From NCBI GenBank assembly GCA_018267365.1, contig JAFDYQ010000010.1, positions 1-64,000 on the forward strand: a DNA stretch of 64,000 nt, read 5' to 3'. This DNA is from Bacteroidota bacterium. GTDB lineage: Bacteria; Bacteroidota; Bacteroidia; Chitinophagales; LD1. A model generated the notes under the pieces. The model saw only the letters and a list, made by a program, of their open reading frames with translations, made no database searches and had not been told where the DNA came from. Shown piece after piece: positions 1,777 through 53,231 of this stretch. Position 1 is the stretch's first letter; each line of letters begins with the position of its first letter. The position numbers and the translations under genes are program-made.

Positions 1777-4407
1777 TTAGAATGGCAGTTTGATGCCCTT
1801 TGTAGCGTTCTTTAGTTTGTCTGCGGCATCCTTGGCGGCCTTGTCTGCTGCCTCTTGTGCTTGTTTTTTAGCCTGCTCAGCAGCCTTCTTTGCAGCATCC
1901 TCTGCTTGCTGCTTAGCCTGATTGGCAGCATCTTTTACGGCATCTTTCACTGCGCCGCCTACAGAGCCGCCTATGCCGGCTACACTACCTACGCTGACCG
2001 TGGGTTTACTCACTGTTCCACCGACCTTTAGTGTCACATTGATCTTCTCCGGCATCTTGAATGGTACACCTGGTATCTGTGGAATCTTGCTGATCAGTCC
2101 ACCTGTAGCCTGGTTGAGTTCAGAGGTAGGTATGTCAGCCTTTAGGTCATAGGCTATGGTCTCGTCAAAGCCATTAGAGCCGGCTACGTTGATATTATAC
2201 CCATTACCAAACTTGATATCAAATGGATCTACATCCACGCGCCCATTATGAAATTTGATAGTGGTCCATGCATTATTGATGGCAAGGTTGTCGAGTGACT
2301 TTACTTTGGTCGCCTCTGCTATCTTCTGAAGTATTGGCAGGTTGACTACACGTGCAGATGGGATAGAGACTTTGCCGCTACCATTCAGGCTGTTGTAGTC
2401 TACACTCATATCCTCTTTCAGTACGCCGGTACCACTCAGGTCAGATGCAAATGAGCCTTGGATATATTTCATCACAGGAGCCATCTTGGCTGCCATATCT
2501 ACAGCCGTGTAGGTTTGTGTGATATCAAAGTTCTTGATGTTGTAGCTGAAGGTCACCTTAGGGTGATTGGTGCCCTTGGTATCATACAGCGCACTGATGA
2601 TCGCCGAGCCGCCCAGCAGGTTAGCAGATAGCTCCTGTAGGTGTATAGACTCATCATAGATATGGACATTGCCGACTACATTGGTCAGTACCAGTTTGTC
2701 GTATAGTATCTTGCCAAACTGTGACCTGGCGGTGAAGTCTATTCCCTTCGGCACATCAAAGTATTGCTTGCCTCCGGCAGGAGTGCCGGTGGTGTTCTTG
2801 GGGTCAGCCGGGCTCTTCTGTGCCGTACTGGTAGTGGCATCATCCTTCACCAGCCACTCATTTGCATCAAACTGATTAGACTTCAGCGTCACTACACCCA
2901 CCAGGTTGCCTTTATTAAACATATACCCGATCAGGTTGTCCATGGAGCCTTGCGCATTGATATCGCTCTTGCCCAGCACTGCACTCAGGTTATCCAGAGA
3001 CACTTTCTGCGGGTTGAAGGTCAGGCCCAGATCTGATACTCTGACCGGCATCGGGGTAGACTTGGAGTCATAGACCATGTTGGTCACTTTCACCTTGCCG
3101 GATGCCTGTATAGCTGTGTAGTTCTTTTTCTGCACATCGCTCATACGGCCTTTAAAGTTGAGGTTGGCTACCAGCAGGCCGGTCAGCTGCTTCAGGCCTT
3201 CCATAGGGTAGAGCTTAGGTACACTGGAGAGATCCAGCCTGCCATTGATCTTGGCTGCTACATTGGGGTCAGACACGGGCGTACTCACATGTATAGAGGC
3301 ATCTATAGGGTCATTGGCTATAGACAGGTGTAGTGCTGGCACATCTATTACAGTCAGGTCGGCGGAGCCCTGAGGCTTATTGATATTGGCAGAGACGTTG
3401 ATGTCTGTGACTGCAGATGGCAGCGATGGATACTGAAACATTGCATTCCTGACCTGCAGATTCAGTTTGATGCCCGGCAGGGTGGTAGAGTCGTAGGAGC
3501 CCTTCACCGCGCCATCCAGGGCCAGTGAGCCGGAGGTCTTGATCTTATCAAAGTCCTTTTTGAAGATGGCCGGTATCAGAGACAAGATGCTCTTGAAGTC
3601 GGCCTGTTTAGACTTGAAGGTCACATCCATGCCGATATCCTTTTTGTTCATCTGTACAAAACCGTCAAACAGGAGGCCCAGATCATTGAGGTCTATTTCG
3701 TTTTGTTTGAAGCTATACTTAGAGTTCTTTTGGTCTACATCTATATCATTCTTCGCAGAGAGTTTCGCTCCGCTCAGATAGGAGACAGCTCCACTTTTGA
3801 AGGTCAACGTAGCGATATTGGTTTTAGTGCTGAGCTTGTAGAGATCCTGTGTCACATCTCCACTACCTTCAAAGTTCAGGTCGCCTATCGAGAGATAGGT
3901 GCCGCCCTTTTGGTCGTCGTATACTATATAGGCGTTCTCTATCTTGTAGGTATTGATCTCGAGAGCAAAGACAGAGTTGCTACCCCCGGTCTTTTCTGTA
4001 GATGGGGTAGGTTTCATGATGTCCCAGTTTGCTTTACCCGCCTTTGTCACTACGGCGTGGACCTTAGGACTGCCGACTATGATCTCTTTGATCTTGTACT
4101 TCTTGCCTTCTATCACAGACATTACGTCTATCACCACACGAAAGTCCTGCACAGAGAGTAGAGTATCCTTGGCAAACTCATCTATACCTGCCACAGAGAG
4201 CTTATTCATACCAAAGCTCAGGTTAGGAAAGGAGCGGATCAGGGAGAGGTCATAGTCCGCATAGTTGACTTTTGCTTTGACCTGTTTATTGATCTCCGTC
4301 TTGATAGCGGCATTGATCTGGTCTTTGAATAGATAAGGAATAGCTATCAGCGCTCCTATGAAAAGGATAAGAAACACAACGACGCCTATCAGGATTTTTT
4401 TGAGCAT
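1777..4407 (-). CDS. AsmA-family protein
   Basis: This 876-residue protein is anchored in the inner membrane by one N-terminal segment (about residues 6-27) and otherwise projects into the periplasm as a long repetitive beta structure. That layout is typical of AsmA/TamB-like proteins, which are now thought to carry or bridge lipids between membranes. The N-terminal region is AsmA-like. The last 60 residues are an Ala/Lys/Gln-rich helical tail, after a Gly/Val linker, that reads as a coiled coil. It stands alone between two terminators. The exact lipid role is inferred from the family only. Confidence 0.8.
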   Translation of the reverse strand: MLKKILIGVVVFLILFIGALIAIPYLFKDQINAAIKTEINKQVKAKVNYADYDLSLIRSFPNLSFGMNKLSVAGIDEFAKDTLLSVQDFRVVIDVMSVIEGKKYKIKEIIVGSPKVHAVVTKAGKANWDIMKPTPSTEKTGGSNSVFALEINTYKIENAYIVYDDQKGGTYLSIGDLNFEGSGDVTQDLYKLSTKTNIATLTFKSGAVSYLSGAKLSAKNDIDVDQKNSKYSFKQNEIDLNDLGLLFDGFVQMNKKDIGMDVTFKSKQADFKSILSLIPAIFKKDFDKIKTSGSLALDGAVKGSYDSTTLPGIKLNLQVRNAMFQYPSLPSAVTDINVSANINKPQGSADLTVIDVPALHLSIANDPIDASIHVSTPVSDPNVAAKINGRLDLSSVPKLYPMEGLKQLTGLLVANLNFKGRMSDVQKKNYTAIQASGKVKVTNMVYDSKSTPMPVRVSDLGLTFNPQKVSLDNLSAVLGKSDINAQGSMDNLIGYMFNKGNLVGVVTLKSNQFDANEWLVKDDATTSTAQKSPADPKNTTGTPAGGKQYFDVPKGIDFTARSQFGKILYDKLVLTNVVGNVHIYDESIHLQELSANLLGGSAIISALYDTKGTNHPKVTFSYNIKNFDITQTYTAVDMAAKMAPVMKYIQGSFASDLSGTGVLKEDMSVDYNSLNGSGKVSIPSARVVNLPILQKIAEATKVKSLDNLAINNAWTTIKFHNGRVDVDPFDIKFGNGYNINVAGSNGFDETIAYDLKADIPTSELNQATGGLISKIPQIPGVPFKMPEKINVTLKVGGTVSKPTVSVGSVAGIGGSVGGAVKDAVKDAANQAKQQAEDAAKKAAEQAKKQAQEAADKAAKDAADKLKNATKGIKLPF

Positions 4408-4495
4408 GTGGGTTGATTTTAAATGGCTTGGGTCAATAACTGTACCAAGTTAAATCTTTTACCAGAAACGATAATATGAACTCGGTAGAAATGCA

Positions 4496-12312: not shown

Positions 12313-12328
12313 TGTGTTCCCGTCGGGA
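12313..12328. repeat. attL core
   Basis: TGTGTTCCCGTCGGGA, identical to 53157-53172. Allowing one mismatch the match is 20 of 21 (from 12308 outwards it breaks off). The sequence is the tRNA-Lys acceptor-stem and T-arm 3' end left as a fragment. Confidence 0.9.
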
Positions 12329-13096: not shown

Positions 13097-13100
13097 CCTC

Positions 13101-13229
13101 TTGACTTGGTTTATGCGCTCTTCAGTGTTGATAACTTTGGTATTAAAAATTATAACCAGTATAACTTTTTATAACTACTATTGTACTACCAATTAACCAA
13201 GTTACAACTAAACATTAACCAAGTCAATA
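13101..13229. promoter_or_regulatory. Divergent operator/promoter region of the lysogeny switch
   Basis: Three copies of AACCAAGT-type sites occur: 13101-13114 (minus, TTGACTTGGTTTAT), 13192-13204 (ATTAACCAAGTTA) and 13214-13229 (ATTAACCAAGTCAATA). The last two are 22 bases apart, two helical turns. TAACTTTG at 13132-13139 is a full -7 match for rightward transcription, with TTGG at 13106-13109 inside the first site. Three TATAAC repeats at 13151, 13160 and 13170 are nearly in helical phase. The layout is that of a cI/cro switch. Confidence 0.65.
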
Positions 13230-13232
13230 GTT

Positions 13233-13466
13233 ATGGAGATCGATAAGGACATCCTGGACCTAAAAAACCAGATGAAGGGCAAGGTGAAGTATGAAGAGGT
13301 GGCCACTAAACTAGATGGTAATGTGACACTTGCTGATATTAAGCGCTTCTTTTCTGGAAGATCTGTACCGTTTGAAAAGCAGATACAAATTATTTCAACA
13401 GCGCAGATTTTGCTGCTAGAAAAGAACGAATTGCTTCAAGCTGCCTTCGCTGGGAAAAATTTTTGA
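13233..13466 (+). CDS. Small Cro-like DNA-binding protein, putative
   Basis: A 77-residue protein read outward from the switch region, opposite the repressor. The pattern KVKYEEVATKLDGNVTLADIKRFFSGRSVPFEKQI fits a compact HTH (turn around DGNV), followed by a helical C-terminus. Position and size suggest Cro or another early regulator. No strong family match was recognised, so the regulator role rests on context. The ATG follows the third operator-like site by only three bases, so a bound repressor would block its transcript. Confidence 0.55.
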   Translation: MEIDKDILDLKNQMKGKVKYEEVATKLDGNVTLADIKRFFSGRSVPFEKQIQIISTAQILLLEKNELLQAAFAGKNF

Positions 13467-13504
13467 TTATATAAATCCCCAAATGGGATATAATAACTTT
13501 TATC

Positions 13505-23838: not shown

Positions 23839-23955
23839 ATAAGTGCCTGATGCACTATTCACTATCATTCCTATCTTCACTCCACACCAAACTATATCGA
23901 TAGCCGGCAGCTCCTGTCTTACCAGACGGGATCTCGCTCGGCTATTTTTGTTTCT

Positions 23956-27339: not shown

Positions 27340-27846
27340 ATGTCATACAATACCCTCCTCAAGCCGGACAATCTCGCTCCTGGCCTGACCGCGTTCTACT
27401 TTTGCGAGAAGGAAGCTTTTCTGGCGCTGCAGTCAGCTACAGCCGGCACCCAGACGATCAGCACTACGCATACCTTTCCTGCAGGTGAAGGTTTTAAGAC
27501 TGGCTATGTGCAGCCTGATAGCCATACTGGCAAGGCCGCTACTGCTGGCAATAAAGGCAGCCAGACCCTCAAGAATGAGTTTCAGGTATTCTTGCCGGGC
27601 ATCAATGATGCGAACCTGACATTCGTGAAGCAGGCTCTGAATGGAGAGTTTATCACGCTGCATAAGGACGCAGACTGTGATAATCCACTCATACTCCAGC
27701 TGGGTAATGACTGCAAAGGTGCCATTCTCACAGCGGCTCTCGAGATAGGTACCACAGAGCCCAATGGACAAAAAGGCTTCATGCTCACGTTTACATGGCC
27801 TGGTATCATGTACATCTACGAGGGCGCTATCACGATGAAGCCATAA
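27340..27846 (+). CDS. Structural protein, paralog 1 (tail-tube-like or decoration)
   Basis: A 168-residue protein whose closest relative visible in the window is the 178-residue product at 43624. The two share start YNTL.KP, a near-identical central block (HTGKAATAGNKGSQTLKNEF), LHKDADCDNP and a C-terminal FTWPGIMYIY. Compact beta-rich composition and place after the capsid suggest a virion protein. A tail tube subunit is the leading guess because the second copy is within the tail module. Confidence 0.6.
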   Translation: MSYNTLLKPDNLAPGLTAFYFCEKEAFLALQSATAGTQTISTTHTFPAGEGFKTGYVQPDSHTGKAATAGNKGSQTLKNEFQVFLPGINDANLTFVKQALNGEFITLHKDADCDNPLILQLGNDCKGAILTAALEIGTTEPNGQKGFMLTFTWPGIMYIYEGAITMKP

Positions 27847-28165: not shown

Positions 28166-28202
28166 CTGTCCTTTCGCCGGGCATGGGCCCACAGTAGTTT
28201 TG
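28166..28202 (+). promoter_or_regulatory. Late promoter element B (portal unit)
   Basis: CTGTCCTTTCGCC at 28166 and TAGTTTTG (28195-28202, a full -7 match) begin 29 bases apart; the ATG at 28207 begins 12 bases after the octamer start. TTTC at 28172-28175 is 19 bases from the octamer, the normal -33/-7 spacing. Confidence 0.72.
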
Positions 28203-31065: not shown

Positions 31066-31425
31066 ATGATAAAGAGAGCTTTTACATTTCTACGTCTATG
31101 GGACGGCTTTTGGTCGGTGCCTCTATCTTTCCTCACTTTCCTTGCGGTAGAGGTAGTCGGCCATTTCGCATTTGGTGATGGCTGGGCGGCCTACGATCCG
31201 GCAATACTTCAAGCGGTAGTGCTGGCCGGCTTCATTATGGTGGCCATCAATATGGCCGTACAGTTCGCCATCTGGTTCAACTTCCCTGCTATATGGGGGC
31301 ACTATCATGTAACATTTGTAGAATCCTTTTCAAGACTCGCGCCATGGCAAAAAGTACTCTTCACTGTCTTTTTATACTGCTTCTACTTCATCCTGTTTGT
31401 CGCTGTAGTGCTCAGGGTGATCTAG
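31066..31425 (+). CDS. Holin-like membrane protein, putative
   Basis: 119 residues with three strongly hydrophobic segments (about 17-33, 47-70 and 95-117) and short basic or aromatic loops. The size, topology and location directly before the endolysin fit a class I holin, which times lysis by opening the inner membrane. It has no sequence motif that proves this. The last 82 bases overlap the endolysin start in another frame. Confidence 0.6.
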   Translation: MIKRAFTFLRLWDGFWSVPLSFLTFLAVEVVGHFAFGDGWAAYDPAILQAVVLAGFIMVAINMAVQFAIWFNFPAIWGHYHVTFVESFSRLAPWQKVLFTVFLYCFYFILFVAVVLRVI

Positions 31426-31883
31426 ACCGAAGCTGTATCACCCACACATATAGCTCTCAGCTGGGAGTCCGGGAGCTGACCGGCCACAATGATGGCAAGG
31501 ACGTAGAGAAGTATCTGCACACCTGTGGCCTTGGCAAGGGATACGCCTGGTGCGCTGCTTTCGTAAAGTGGTGCTACATCCAGTGTGGTATCAATACGAC
31601 TGGCATCACCGCATGGGCCGCTACCTGCATCAACCGCAACCACATCATCTACAGCCAGGGCCGGTTCACCTCTGAGCCGTTGCCCGGAGACAACATCACC
31701 TTCTGGGACTACTACAATAAGCGGGTCGCTCACACTGGCCTCTACCATCGGCGCGTGAACGAGACCTTTTACGAGTCTGTAGAAGGCAATACTAACGGTG
31801 CCGGCAGCGCGGAAGGTGATGGCGTCTACCTCAAGAAACGCAGTTTTAAAGCCACGTATATCATCTCCAGATGGACAAACTAA
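31344..31883 (+). CDS. Exported endolysin with CHAP/NlpC-like domain
   Basis: 179 residues from ATG 31344 inside the holin gene. A hydrophobic signal (LHCLFILLLLHPVCRCSAQ) precedes a papain-like peptidoglycan hydrolase domain with Cys70 in GYAWCAAFVKW and His130 in VAHTGLYH, close to the TIGR02594 group. It should cleave peptidoglycan cross-links in the periplasm. The signal means it may reach the wall by Sec, so the holin would trigger rather than release it. It overlaps the next gene by 13 bases. Confidence 0.78.
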   Translation: MAKSTLHCLFILLLLHPVCRCSAQGDLDRSCITHTYSSQLGVRELTGHNDGKDVEKYLHTCGLGKGYAWCAAFVKWCYIQCGINTTGITAWAATCINRNHIIYSQGRFTSEPLPGDNITFWDYYNKRVAHTGLYHRRVNETFYESVEGNTNGAGSAEGDGVYLKKRSFKATYIISRWTN

Positions 31884-34235: not shown

Positions 34236-34272
34236 CTGTCCTTTCGCCCGGCACACTCGGCACCGACCTTCG
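34236..34272 (+). promoter_or_regulatory. Late promoter element C (tape measure unit)
   Basis: CTGTCCTTTCGCC at 34236 and GACCTTCG (34265-34272) begin 29 bases apart, and the ATG at 34277 begins 12 bases after the octamer start. The first 13 bases are identical to element B. Confidence 0.68.
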
Positions 34273-40498: not shown

Positions 40499-43153
40499 AT
40501 GCACGGACCCCTAGTATACCTCAAAGGTGAGCCGCTGGATACAGACGGACAACCTCTCAAAATTGAACGCGCTAACAACCTCTTTGAAGGCGAGCCGATT
40601 AAGGGCGAGTATTCGTACCCCTTCACCTGGCCGCTGACTGAGCGCAGCCGGAAGTTACTCGGCAACATTCAGGAAAATAGCCTGCTCGATGAGCCATTGA
40701 TCTATGAGGTCAAGTATATGAGCCTGGGCGAACTGGTAGATGGACTGCTGTATATAGACAAGGTGACATGGAATAAAAATACCAGGGAGGGCAGTATTGA
40801 TGGCAATCTAAATGGCACCGAGGGCATCCTGGCAAATAGCTTTGGGACCAAGAAGTTGTCAGCGCTGCGGCTCGGTGGCCCCATAGTGCTGCCGGCAGCT
40901 ACGGCCAATAATGGAGCATCTCCCATAGATGGTGACCCCGGATCCGGATGGACCTACAAGAGTGCAGCTTGTGAGTTTGCCACCGGTGTGACCAACGGCA
41001 CCATAGTCGGCTACGACGTGACCTTTCCTATGACCCGCTGGCTCGACTATCGCGATCGTGCCAAGTATGAGAGCTTTCACCACGACACATACAATACGCC
41101 TGACTCAGAATATTGGGATAAGGATAGTGCTATACCATTGCCCAATGAATGTGTGAACTACTGGACCGACAATCTGGGCGGTATCGTACAAAACGGTTTT
41201 GGTGGGGGCTGGGATTATCCGTATGCCGCCCAGTGTTATCCTTATCTGCTTTACCAGCATAAGTTCAGCAACACGATAAATGCCAAGTACAATGCCGTAA
41301 ACAGGATCATTCCGATGTTTACCCTGAAGGGGCTACTCACTCGTATTTTTGCAGATGTAGGCTTTGATCTGAAAGGAGCGATACTCTCTGACGCTTCGTT
41401 TTCAAAGCTGATCGTTGTAAATAATTACAGCGTCAACAAGTGGGTATTCCGCGGCTCTCCGGACATAACTATCGAAGACACATGTACTGAGATCAACCCG
41501 GCCAACCATGTGCCGGATATGGCAGCTGTGGACTTTCTCAATCAGGTATTCTCCTGGCTCGGGCTTGTACCCAAGGTGACTAATGCCACCGTGACATTGT
41601 ATACGGTCAATGAAATATTGGCAATGACCGACTATCCTGTCACCTGCCCCACTTCTCCGGAGGAGGTAAAGTCTCTTACCGATAATTATTCCTCCGGTAT
41701 GAATATGAAGTATACCTTTCCTACCGCACCTGAGGCCGCAGATGGTAGTGCAGCATTCCGCTCAGCCAATCCCTATCTGATAGAGTTTGACGATCTGATC
41801 AAAAGCCTGCCCGCCACAGGTACATATATCGAGGTCAATACTTTTTCATCGCTCCCGGCACCATCACCTTACAACATTGATCTGATAGCGCTGGTGCGGG
41901 ACGAGCAGCAGTTTTATCAAAACAGCAAAGGTGTCTGGACCAGCTATGGCATGAACCTGGTCAACCATACTGAGGAGGGTGGAAAGGATAGGACCATAAA
42001 TGGGAGTACGATACCGATAGCTACTTGGGTAGCTTATGAAAGTGAAGTGCTGGGCGGCACAGTGACCCCCAATAGTATACAGGTGCGGACACCTGTGATC
42101 CGCGCCAAGGGCTCTTATTTTACCGACACCTACGATAACTTCACCTATCACGTGGATGCATTAGCTCAGGCCCTGGATGACGATGGAAAACAGAAGTTCA
42201 ATTCTTTTCCTCTCATGATGCTATTCTATCATGGTCTGCACGCGCTGACCATTAGTGCCCCTCTGACCAGAGTACCATATGCCTCGCCTTTTCAGATAGA
42301 CCCTAACGGTGGTTTTCTGGGACCATGGGACCTGACACTGGAGGGTTCCCGGTCGCTTTTTCACCACTTCTTTGACGAATGGAATAAAACGATCAAAGGC
42401 ATCGTAAAATATACGGTAGAGCTGTATCCATCTATGAATGATACCGGTACCACCGATCTGCATACACCTAAGGCACTGCTAAATAATCGGATGCTGCCGT
42501 ATAAGATCACCTATACTGAACCTTACGACGGCACCGTGACGATGGAATGCTACAAGGTAAAGGATACCAATCCGAAGATCGTTACAGAGCTTGTCCTGTC
42601 TGCTCTGCAGCTCCTGGATATTCAGGGTTTCCCTATCATCGATATGACAGGCAGCACGGCCAGTCATGGCAGCGGCTCATATATACTGGTAGTAGCCAAT
42701 AACGATGCAGGCACCAGCTACCTGGTCAATATATCAGAGACTACAGATGGCCAGCTATCCACGCTACTCAGGACAGTCAAAGCGTCTGAGATCGGCTGCA
42801 ACCTCTCCATATACCTGATGGACCCGACGAATAGGGTTAACTCAAATGTTGTATCAATTCAGATGCCGGCAGTCGGCAGTGGCTCTTTCCATCTGGCACT
42901 TGCCCCTGCAGCGGGCAGTCTGGATTTTACGGGTACGACTGTATCGGGATGCAGCGGGGAGTATCGCCTGGAGATAAGGAATACATCCGACGTAGTGGTC
43001 AACCTATGGCATTTCTATGCTACAGGATCGGGCTCGATAACGTATGCACCAAGTTATGCAACATTAGGGTTGACAGCCGGCCAGACATACCACTTTACAG
43101 TGATCGATACACCTGCACTAACCGTGTCGAATTCCGTAGCGGTGACGGTTTAA
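40499..43153 (+). CDS. Large tail/baseplate protein
   Basis: 884 residues, two bases after the LRR tail gene. It begins with a compact domain (LVYLKGEPLDTDGQPLKIERA, then FTWPLTERSRKLLG) typical of Bacteroidota phage tail hubs, has a long beta middle, and ends with Ser/Gly/Thr-rich Ig-like domains (residues about 700-880; ASGSFHLALAPAAGSLDF type). It is the probable hub or fibre attachment protein. Its last four bases overlap the stop of a minus-strand gene. Confidence 0.6.
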   Translation: MHGPLVYLKGEPLDTDGQPLKIERANNLFEGEPIKGEYSYPFTWPLTERSRKLLGNIQENSLLDEPLIYEVKYMSLGELVDGLLYIDKVTWNKNTREGSIDGNLNGTEGILANSFGTKKLSALRLGGPIVLPAATANNGASPIDGDPGSGWTYKSAACEFATGVTNGTIVGYDVTFPMTRWLDYRDRAKYESFHHDTYNTPDSEYWDKDSAIPLPNECVNYWTDNLGGIVQNGFGGGWDYPYAAQCYPYLLYQHKFSNTINAKYNAVNRIIPMFTLKGLLTRIFADVGFDLKGAILSDASFSKLIVVNNYSVNKWVFRGSPDITIEDTCTEINPANHVPDMAAVDFLNQVFSWLGLVPKVTNATVTLYTVNEILAMTDYPVTCPTSPEEVKSLTDNYSSGMNMKYTFPTAPEAADGSAAFRSANPYLIEFDDLIKSLPATGTYIEVNTFSSLPAPSPYNIDLIALVRDEQQFYQNSKGVWTSYGMNLVNHTEEGGKDRTINGSTIPIATWVAYESEVLGGTVTPNSIQVRTPVIRAKGSYFTDTYDNFTYHVDALAQALDDDGKQKFNSFPLMMLFYHGLHALTISAPLTRVPYASPFQIDPNGGFLGPWDLTLEGSRSLFHHFFDEWNKTIKGIVKYTVELYPSMNDTGTTDLHTPKALLNNRMLPYKITYTEPYDGTVTMECYKVKDTNPKIVTELVLSALQLLDIQGFPIIDMTGSTASHGSGSYILVVANNDAGTSYLVNISETTDGQLSTLLRTVKASEIGCNLSIYLMDPTNRVNSNVVSIQMPAVGSGSFHLALAPAAGSLDFTGTTVSGCSGEYRLEIRNTSDVVVNLWHFYATGSGSITYAPSYATLGLTAGQTYHFTVIDTPALTVSNSVAVTV

Positions 43154-43551
43154 AGCTTGAAAAATAAGGTGTCGCGCCCTGAGTAGTTAGGAGTGGAGCG
43201 AACGAAATAATGGTAGTACAGACGTACCGAATCTATGCGGTAGATCGGTGAATCGGGCTGCGGCTGCTCGATATCCCGTAGGCTGACGGTCTCAGGGATT
43301 ACTTGGCCGCTGGTTCCATTCCAGGTTATGAAATCAATGCCTGAAAATGTCTTGCTATGGATACTATTGAAGTAGAATATAAGCCGTGAATCAGCAATTG
43401 GCTCTACGTTGGCCTGATCGTGGCCGATAGTAATGTCGGTAGCGGTCTGCGTGACATAAATCTTAGAGCTATCGTATGTGACGGTATCGGTCTTTTTGCA
43501 AGAGACGGTCAGCAGCAGGACCATCAGGATAGGTAGGTAGGTAGATTTCAT
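43150..43551 (-). CDS. Prophage-encoded lipoprotein, antisense to the tail operon
   Basis: 133 residues with a clear lipoprotein signal, MKSTYLPILMVLLLTVSC with Cys18, followed by KKTDTVTY. A compact beta domain follows (DSRLIFYFNSIHSKTFSGIDF, then IYRIDSVRLYYHYFV). It has its own full-match promoter, is convergent with the tail genes and is the only minus-strand gene in the structural region. This is the usual layout of a moron expressed from the prophage. By analogy with phage T5 Llp, which masks its receptor, it may change the cell surface. That role is inferred. Confidence 0.75.
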   Translation of the reverse strand: MKSTYLPILMVLLLTVSCKKTDTVTYDSSKIYVTQTATDITIGHDQANVEPIADSRLIFYFNSIHSKTFSGIDFITWNGTSGQVIPETVSLRDIEQPQPDSPIYRIDSVRLYYHYFVRSTPNYSGRDTLFFKL

Positions 43552-43555
43552 ATAT

Positions 43556-43563
43556 CAAATATA
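43556..43563 (-). promoter_or_regulatory. Promoter of the antisense lipoprotein gene
   Basis: The minus strand reads TATATTTG (43563-43556), identical to the rplS -7 box, and is followed four bases later by the ATG. There is no CTGTCC element in this direction and no clear -33 box. It should be read by the host sigma factor in the lysogen. Confidence 0.6.
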
Positions 43564-43582: not shown

Positions 43583-43619
43583 CTGTCCTTTAGCCCGCTA
43601 GGACCGCTGCAGATATTTG
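43583..43619 (+). promoter_or_regulatory. Late promoter element D (distal tail unit)
   Basis: CTGTCCTTTAGCCCG at 43583 and GATATTTG (43612-43619, one mismatch to TAnnTTTG) begin 29 bases apart. The ATG at 43624 begins 12 bases after the octamer start. It lies only 20 bases from the divergent lipoprotein promoter. Confidence 0.7.
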
Positions 43620-43623
43620 TGGC

Positions 43624-44160
43624 ATGGGTTACAATACACTAACCAAGCCGCTCAACCTGATGCCAGGCCTCAGCAAATTCCTCTTTTGCGAGAAGTCTGC
43701 ATTCAGCACGATAGCGCCGGCCATACCCGGCAGCCAGATCATCGGAGCCGATCATACCTTCCCATCCGGAGAGGGCTGGAAAACGGCCTATATCATCGTA
43801 GACGAGCACACTGGCAAAGCAGCTACTGCCGGCAACAAGGGTAGCCAGACGCTCAAGAATGAGTTCAGCGTATTTCTGCCAGGTATAGACGATGCCACTC
43901 TGAGCTTTGTGAAAAAAGCCCTGAACGATGAGTTTATCACGCTGCACAAGGATGCCGATTGCGATAACCCGCTGTGGCTGCAGCTGGGTGATGAGTGCAA
44001 GGGTGCTACTATGACCTGTGACCTGGAGATCGGTACTACCGCCCCTGATGGCAGAAAGGGGTATATCCTGAAGTTTACGTGGCCAGGTATCATGTACATC
44101 TATACCGGCCAGATCACCTACCAGCCTGTAATGTCTTTATTACTCACATATAACCCATAA
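43624..44160 (+). CDS. Structural protein, paralog 2 (tail-tube-like or decoration)
   Basis: A 178-residue protein closely related to the product at 27340 over its whole length; it has an extra C-terminal stretch after ITYQP. The pair keep the central HTGKAATAGNKGSQTLKNEF block and WPGIMYIY end. The two have separate promoters (this one element D), so they may serve different places in the virion. Function unknown. Confidence 0.6.
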   Translation: MGYNTLTKPLNLMPGLSKFLFCEKSAFSTIAPAIPGSQIIGADHTFPSGEGWKTAYIIVDEHTGKAATAGNKGSQTLKNEFSVFLPGIDDATLSFVKKALNDEFITLHKDADCDNPLWLQLGDECKGATMTCDLEIGTTAPDGRKGYILKFTWPGIMYIYTGQITYQPVMSLLLTYNP

Positions 44161-45322: not shown

Positions 45323-45661
45323 ATGAACTCAAAAAGTCTTATGCGTCCATTTATATACATCATCGCACTCAGCAGCATGCTGCTGAGTGCATGCGTTGCC
45401 AATGCTGCGCCACCCGACCCGGGCGGCACAGGGGCACCGAAAAAGGAGAGAAGGGTATATATCATCCATGCGGCAGATCTGCCTCAGGAGCTGCAGCTGC
45501 GCTCCTATACGCCGATCTATGAGCTGACCTGCTTTGGCATGGCTGCTGAAGCTCCGGAGCTGCCGGTGGTAGAATATGGCTATGTCGCGATGATACTGCC
45601 ATTGTATGAATCTCCATATGTAGAGAGGCCTCAGGCATTCTATGCCAGGTCTACCTGCTAA
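45323..45661 (+). CDS. Small putative lipoprotein ending the distal tail unit
   Basis: 112 residues with a signal ending LLSAC (Cys24) followed by a Pro/Gly-rich linker (PPDPGGTGAPKKERR) and a short C-terminal domain. It may be a second lysogenic-conversion or lysis factor. A 26-base perfect palindrome lies within its signal-peptide codons. A strong terminator follows. Confidence 0.55.
   Translation: MNSKSLMRPFIYIIALSSMLLSACVANAAPPDPGGTGAPKKERRVYIIHAADLPQELQLRSYTPIYELTCFGMAAEAPELPVVEYGYVAMILPLYESPYVERPQAFYARSTC
45365..45390. repeat. 26-bp perfect palindrome
   Basis: Half site GCACTCAGCAGCA reads on directly into its exact complement (centre between 45377 and 45378). It starts 42 bases after the ATG of the small lipoprotein gene; in RNA it would be a very stable hairpin near the start of translation. 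Confidence 0.85.
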
Positions 45662-45691
45662 CGACAAGATTTTCTTGTTTTGTTTGCCCAG

Positions 45692-45722
45692 GCCGCTGCG
45701 TCTCTGATGCAGCGGCTTTTTT
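45692..45722 (+). terminator. Terminator at the convergence of tail and terminase units
   Basis: GCCGCTGC (45692-45699) pairs with GCAGCGGC (45709-45716) and is followed by six Ts. It ends the rightward tail transcript and reaches the terL stop. Confidence 0.88.
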
Positions 45723-48555: not shown

Positions 48556-48919
48556 TACAATTGTAAAGTTCAGTTAGATCTACTGCTGGATAAAGGACAG
48601 GGAGTTGCCTGCGGCCGGGCTGTACGCGGTGCATGGCACACTGCTACCATCCCTAACTCAATACACCCAGCGGACAGAGGCTTACTACGTAGCCACTGCC
48701 CGCGCCCCCAATACAGGTAGGACTAGCACATAGCCTTCATTCCTTCGCACCCGTGTACCACTGGGTCGCTCAGTCATTCGCTACATGCTATCCCTACCCA
48801 TAAGCGGAATCTGTCACGCTATAGGCAGCGGTGGCAGGCGCACCATAGGCGCGGAGCGCCGCCCACCCGACTAGACACTGTATCATATTTCGGTCGTTTT
48901 TTGCTTTTTACAATTGTAA
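48555..48919. repeat. Pair of TTACAATTGTAA palindromes
   Basis: Two identical 12-bp perfect palindromes at 48555-48566 and 48908-48919 flank a GC-rich stretch. The first covers the start codon of the leftward terminase unit and touches its promoter octamer. The second precedes the rightward promoter at 49035. They look like operator sites. Confidence 0.6.
48564..48600 (-). promoter_or_regulatory. Late promoter element E (terminase unit, leftward)
   Basis: On the minus strand CTGTCCTTTATCC starts at 48600, and GAACTTTA (48571-48564) begins exactly 29 bases later. The ATG at 48555 begins 16 bases after the octamer start. This is the only copy in leftward direction and puts packaging genes into the same regulon as head, lysis and tail. 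Confidence 0.65.
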
Positions 48920-53156: not shown

Positions 53157-53172
53157 TGTGTTCCCGTCGGGA
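53157..53172. repeat. attR core
   Basis: TGTGTTCCCGTCGGGA, identical to attL at 12313-12328, covering the 3' end of the tRNA-Lys gene. The phage copy restores the full gene. Confidence 0.9.
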
Positions 53173-53231
53173 TTCGAACCCGAGACCCATACATTAAAAG
53201 TGTATTGCTCTACCAGCTGAGCTACGGAAAC
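53159..53231 (-). tRNA. tRNA-Lys (TTT)
   Basis: 73 bases on the minus strand. Acceptor GTTTCCG pairs with CGGGAAC (one G-T), D-arm GCTCAGCTGGTAGAGC, anticodon stem ATACA/TGTAT with loop CTTTTAA (anticodon TTT), T-loop GGTTCGAATCC, discriminator A. CCA is not encoded. It is intact and remains the only tRNA in the window. Confidence 0.96.

Follow-up and report, generated by a model that had tools for sequence, protein, structure and literature searches.

The window, by which we mean the whole 64-kb stretch of DNA analyzed here, carries a complete-looking 40.9-kb prophage that lies in a tRNA-Lys gene and is bounded by 16-bp repeats (Table 1). Its gene set includes a CI-like repressor, an integrase, a ClpP-type head protease, a portal protein, a tape measure protein, and a CHAP endolysin. 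All apparent genes from 13.1 to 45.7 kb are on the plus strand, with the exception of a single minus-strand gene, whose product we refer to here as P0001. The first-pass annotation had described it as the lone minus-strand gene among structural genes, and no other was apparent between 13,096 and 45,721. Its divergent neighbor is a paralogue, 70% identical, of the gene at 27340-27846; it looks tail-tube-like by inspection, with no family match. Two diverged copies of such a gene are thus present in one prophage, with a late element only at the second. We also observed another ORFan lipoprotein-like gene at 45323-45661 on the plus strand (MNSKSLMRPFIYIIALSSMLLSAC), where the late operon ends.

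Table 1. Positions of the features discussed, in window coordinates
Feature	Position	Strand	Remark
Left att repeat TGTGTTCCCGTCGGGA	12313-12328		Repeat match
Late elements	23914, 28166, 34236, 43583	+	Matches to CTGTC[CT]T[TA]
Late element	48600	-	Match to CTGTC[CT]T[TA]
Late promoter spans	23914-23950, 28166-28202, 34236-34272, 43583-43619	+	
Late promoter span	48564-48600	-	
Tail-region protein, 884 aa	40499-43153	+	Convergent with the lipoprotein gene; stops overlap by 4 bp (TTAA)
Lipoprotein gene (P0001)	43150-43551	-	133 aa, ATG start; mature part, 116 aa
Signal peptide MKSTYLPILMVLLLTVS of P0001	43501-43551	-	Lipobox Cys and KKTDT come next; lacks an acidic export signal
Host-type -7 box TATATTTG	43556-43563	-	4 nt before the lipoprotein ATG; transcription predicted to begin on the A of ATG or an adjacent base
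Late-promoter element CTGTCCTTT	43583-43591	+	CTGTCC starts 20 nt ahead of the lipoprotein box when read on the minus strand
Late -7-like box GATATTTG	43612-43619	+	29 nt after the CTGTC start; 4 nt before the ATG at 43624
Divergent neighbor	43624-44160	+	Tail-tube-like by inspection
Nearest strong plus-strand terminator-like hairpin	45690-45718	+	Simple hairpin scan
Right att repeat	53157-53172		Inside the 3' end of tRNA-Lys (53158-53231)

The minus-strand frame is a real coding gene and encodes a lipoprotein, as had been proposed at the outset; reading frame, signal, and codon score all agree. An in-frame TGA lies 6 nt (two codons) upstream of the ATG at 43551, so no earlier start is possible, and initiation at codon 10, the next Met, would make the signal peptide too short. 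The N-terminus, MKSTYLPILMVLLLTVS followed by CKK, is a lipoprotein signal, with the lipidation Cys as the sole Cys of the protein; a lipobox occurred in none of 26 spurious ORFs. The codon score of P0001 (0.133) is host-like and exceeds that of 25 of these 26 ORFs, and 12 of the 67 listed genes score equal or lower. The GC content of the gene is 0.47, compared with 0.50 to 0.51 in its neighbors. A simple hairpin scan detected no terminator of its own at the 3' end.

The box ahead of this gene, TATATTTG at 43563-43556, is the same octamer as that upstream of rplS (10249-10242), which bears out the first-pass claim of a host-type promoter; the window contains a third copy, 22 nt ahead of tRNA-Lys. 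The octamer alone is unremarkable, since its 3 copies in 64 kb compare with a mean of 2.3 in shuffled sequences, and its weight therefore rests on its position 4 nt from the start rather than on the word. A spurious antisense ORF that happens to lie beside a chance copy of TATATTTG could draw on this expected count of 2.3 per window. However, it would leave a 470-nt hole in a dense operon, and codon score, lipobox, and spacing favor a real gene, so that we find this explanation scarcely credible.

The spacing was assessed upstream of ORFs of at least 150 aa (n = 582) in the 64-kb window and a further 791 kb of the same genome. TAnnTTTG peaked at gaps of 4 to 6 nt, with 21 cases among the 582 ORFs (7, 10, and 4, respectively); gaps of 9 to 15 nt gave 0, 0, 0, 1, 0, 2, and 1 cases, an average of ∼0.6 per position, and six control motifs gave between 0 and 6 cases at gaps of 4 to 6 nt in the same ORFs. 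The peak had first been seen with 323 ORFs. TAnnTTTG at this short gap is a true promoter class in the genome that carries the prophage.

We further scanned viral contigs for TATATTTG-N4-ATGAAAAAA and for the same words at a control spacing of 11 nt, with an ORF cutoff of at least 50 aa. The N4 arrangement was found at a minimum of 120 places; among the matches listed, 103 of 120 opened an ORF of at least 50 aa, and the median over all places was 117. At the control spacing, this was the case for 24 of 66 places (median, 26). Lipoprotein-like products accounted for 9 of the 103 ORFs at N4 among the matches listed, versus 1 of the 24 controls, and both neighbors were on the opposite strand for 5 of these 103 versus none of the 24. 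Among them is a 182-aa lipoprotein of viral contig L166 (9853-10401, minus strand), which lies between plus-strand genes and has the same promoter type. As an observation in its own right, TAnnTTTG 4 to 6 nt before ATG forms a distinct leaderless-start signature in both the 582 ORFs of the genome and viral contigs L072 to L191.

According to the available text of PMC6847099, the -7 element of Flavobacterium johnsoniae precedes the transcription start by 4 to 5 nt, positions -10/-9 are almost never G, and the -33 motif is weak. The box TATATTTG agrees with this base rule as given there, and a clear -33 TTG, a motif that is weak in this phylum, is absent upstream of it. Taken with the gap of 4 nt, the F. 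johnsoniae spacing rule as so described predicts a leaderless mRNA for the lipoprotein gene, which refines the first-pass promoter, where this consequence of the short spacing had been missed. Leaderless mRNA is a minority class in the phylum, as judged from the accessible portions of two reports: 87% of F. johnsoniae leaders exceed 10 nt (PMC6847099), and ∼3.7% of the 5' untranslated regions of Bacteroides thetaiotaomicron are shorter than 10 nt (PMC7366714). The short-gap signature fits the many "atypical" start signals of Bacteroidetes described in part of PMC3160421, where leaderless genes with unknown promoters are left as a possibility. We also scanned for sigma70-type promoters and found none near the lipoprotein gene. 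Literature searches on leaderless Bacteroidetes promoters and on prophage lipoproteins of this type turned up no account of the present arrangement among open-access papers, most of them judged by title and the start of the abstract.

Late element D, which the first-pass annotation had placed back to back with this promoter, is real. Of 47 prophage ORFs, 5 have the motif CTGTC[CT]T[TA] 40 to 46 nt ahead of their start, versus 1 of 697 host ORFs. In each of the five, the C of CTGTC lies 29 nt ahead of the first base of a degenerate TAnnTTTG box, and the gene starts are near-leaderless, with 4 to 8 nt between box and ATG; the boxes are TATTTTTG, TAGTTTTG, GACCTTCG, GATATTTG, and GAACTTTA. The first of these, at 23943, is on the host consensus, whereas the other four are off it. 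Since most late boxes deviate in this way, a phage factor reading CTGTC is likely to act at these promoters. A similar CTGTCYT late-promoter pattern was not seen in genome G006, which belongs to the same genus.

The back-to-back arrangement can now be drawn more precisely: CTGTCCTTT covers the -33 region of the lipoprotein promoter, with both promoters contained in a 72-bp spacer, and because of this overlap one occupant should exclude the other. A simple scan detected no plus-strand terminator between 42918 and 45690, so that transcription of the tail operon should cross the whole lipoprotein gene in the antisense direction. The geometry would thus allow late transcription to silence the gene, as had been suggested. 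We searched for an operator that the lipoprotein promoter might share with the repressor region (13097-13504); the best ungapped matches were unimpressive, with 2 of 12 positions mismatched. From its place between the two promoters, with its start 20 nt from the lipoprotein box, the CTGTCC element might conceivably work both ways, making P0001 a late-expressed protein related to lysis or the virion, such as an outer spanin. We consider this highly improbable: the fixed late geometry of 29 nt to the box is found here on the plus strand only, late plus-strand transcription would be antisense to the gene, and the gene lies outside the lysis cassette, with its CHAP endolysin gene at 31293 and a gene at 31871 that is spanin-like by inspection. 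We are highly confident that gene, signal, promoter class, and promoter geometry are, jointly, as described, and the sequence suggests that the gene is probably expressed in the lysogen.

Searches for relatives of P0001 in Pfam, PHROGs, NCBIfam, PADLOC, PDB, phage records, plasmids, viral contigs, and genome contigs gave none, and no host copy or relative turned up in its own genome or in a sample of 396 genomes at the order level and 395 at the phylum level. Two weak matches were dismissed as chance: 32% identity within a 1,360-aa frame (E = 0.004; 60 genomes), by inspection a repeat-rich secreted protein, and 28% within a 1,069-aa frame (E = 4.5e-4; 396 genomes), by inspection an RND-type transporter. 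Structure prediction without an alignment reached a pLDDT of 41, with no usable fold. P0001 is an ORFan. With no relatives for a selection test, it could also be neutral or decaying cargo, once a lipoprotein gene and now transcribed without any selected function, but the intact frame, the signal peptide, the consensus box at the exact spacing, and the host-like codon use make this improbable.

To place P0001 in the envelope, we compared it with the lipoproteins of its host. Among 768 ORFs of at least 70 aa (855 kb), 41 were lipoprotein-like; acidic residues at positions +2 to +6 numbered none in 22 of these and one in 19, with two or more in none, and P0001 has one. In Capnocytophaga, the minimal export signal is K-(D/E)2 or Q-A-(D/E)2, according to the available part of PMC5080379. 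The K-(D/E)2 signal is absent from P0001, with the proviso that this consensus is that of Capnocytophaga and may not be this host's. Since it carries no acidic surface-export signal, P0001 is predicted to face the periplasm. A PF14322 SusD-like protein was absent from the same genome, even though the host belongs to the Bacteroidota.

In layout, T5 comes closest to this locus. In the T5 record, the lipoprotein gene (110429-110662, plus strand) is divergent from oad on the minus strand, and the llp and oad promoters overlap (110349-110423 on the plus strand and 110375-110449 on the minus strand). As here, a small outer-membrane lipoprotein gene is set against late genes, and its promoter lies back to back with that of a divergently oriented tail gene. 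Llp is described in the accessible text of PMC9586334 as periplasmic, the location predicted for P0001, and as jamming FhuA from inside. In contrast, the mature part of Llp comprises 62 aa (by record coordinates) versus 116 aa in P0001; P0001 has a single Cys, and hence no intramolecular disulfide, whereas Llp has one according to the same text; no sequence relation between the two was detected; and the P0001 gene is prophage borne, with a tail-tube-like paralogue rather than a known receptor-binding protein as its divergent partner. The Cor lipoproteins of T1, phi80, and relatives, which that text likewise presents as phage lipoproteins for superinfection exclusion, share the disulfide of Llp that P0001 lacks, and the family databases searched gave no sequence match. 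We therefore rejected membership of P0001 in the Llp/Cor family, as it has no match in PHROGs, Pfam, NCBIfam, PDB, or phage records and is without the disulfide. The T5 parallel drawn in the first-pass annotation thus stands for the layout and fails for the family. Receptor masking in the manner of Llp, also raised there, would have to act from inside, as P0001 has no surface-export signal.

Two other comparisons are of a looser kind. Ltp of Streptococcus thermophilus TP-J34 is also a prophage lipoprotein for superinfection exclusion, according to the available text of PMC3952083; unlike P0001, which has no PHROG or Pfam match, it is surface exposed and belongs to a Gram-positive host. With prophage morons, the gene shares an opposite-strand orientation, an apparently variable place among relatives, and what appears to be its own promoter, TATATTTG at a gap of 4 nt; it differs from them in that no terminator of its own was seen, and its composition appears near that of its neighbors.

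Homologues of the 884-aa tail gene were found in 7 of the 396 genomes sampled at the order level and in 26 of 395 at the class level; both counts include the genome that carries the prophage. Behind the homologue in genome G006 (MAG RYN_284) lies a 69-aa lipoprotein, with the box TATCTTTG at a gap of 17 nt, and then a DUF4468 protein. In G013 (contig L070), an 84-aa ORF is followed by an opposite-strand HEPN_AbiU2 gene (3752-4417; E = 2.8e-9), and in G128 (contig L069), an 84-aa ORF is followed at 499-1583 by HTH_VI (E = 1.2e-28) and RT_VI (E = 1.5e-73), whose domain matches identify them as the protein pair of a type VI retron. At the other order-level loci, the slot contained no cargo (G069; 19 nt to the next tail gene, which differs from that in the window), an overlapping gene of phage look (G099), or short opposite-strand ORFs before the contig end (G360). 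In the class-level set, tail genes follow at most loci. The slot in G1079, G742, G643, G758, G597, G488, and G738 is occupied by small exported or membrane proteins without known defence domains.

The slot survey comprised 31 homologue loci, the places in G853 and G855 having been dropped beforehand. Recognized defence genes were present at only 2 of the 31 (G013 and G128), with part of the neighbors scanned; a scan of 10 further slot neighbors per database yielded a single Pfam match (DUF6808) and none in PADLOC. Exported proteins were weakly enriched near the tail gene, numbering 11 of 47 within 700 nt of it versus 29 of 237 elsewhere (30 loci; one-sided p = 0.04, with the radius chosen after looking). 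This count leaves out G1098, where only an 85-aa frame was read, and the G006 lipoprotein is not among the 11 because the ORF caller misses it, its frame starting upstream. In viral scans, no match was obtained for the 884-aa tail protein, its tail-tube-like neighbor's paralogue pair, or the terminase, and the phage collection likewise had no match to the G069 homologue. In class-level prophages (L301, L308, L310, and L311), several small exported cargo genes are preceded by a recurring element similar to accaataaaattagcaaa. Taken together, these data are suggestive of a cargo slot with anti-phage content behind the 884-aa gene.

These neighbors bear on what P0001 does. Under the same leaderless promoter, a periplasm-facing lipoprotein could serve lysogenic conversion, altering an envelope or nutrient trait of the host rather than acting on phages. 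The N-terminus and post-Cys residues of P0001 do resemble those of the host's own lipoproteins, its codon score is within the host range, and the G006 counterpart lies beside a DUF4468 secreted protein, which is not a known defence. On the other hand, the slot is occupied by defence genes in two relatives, and no P0001 relative was found in own genome or in the order- and phylum-level sets, so that we regard conversion as possible but rather unlikely. Superinfection exclusion, by an Llp-like action outside the Llp family, is the function that we favor by analogy with T5, albeit tentatively. Counting against it are the failure to detect a homologue, domain, or usable fold, the lack of a clear -33 TTG and of a terminator at the gene's 3' end, and the neighborhood in relatives, where cargo is not universal (G069, G099, and most class-level loci have ordinary phage genes next).

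For superinfection exclusion, we infer the following course of events. The lipoprotein gene would be prophage cargo made in the lysogen, where host RNA polymerase would read TATATTTG and initiate on the A of the ATG or a base beside it, so that the transcript would be leaderless. P0001 would be lipidated, sorted to the outer membrane, and, for want of an acidic export signal, kept on the periplasmic side, from where it may target a phage receptor of the outer membrane in the way that T5 Llp targets FhuA. Upon induction, a late regulator or polymerase would occupy CTGTCCTTT over the -33 region of the lipoprotein promoter, and transcription of the tail operon would run antisense through the gene and shut it off.

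If this is true, the T5 Llp strategy would have its Bacteroidota counterpart in this locus. More speculatively, and in our view unlikely as a complete picture, temperate phages of Bacteroidota may keep an anti-phage cargo slot (lipoprotein, AbiU2, or type VI retron) behind one large tail gene, filled here by a periplasm-facing excluder under a two-way switch at the 72-bp spacer that would make dormancy and late growth mutually exclusive. The rule of TANNTTTG, 4 to 6 nt, and ATG would find leaderless genes expressed in the lysogen in Bacteroidota prophages, where most proteins are without a family, and the slot behind the 884-aa tail gene is a place where new anti-phage genes of this group may turn up.
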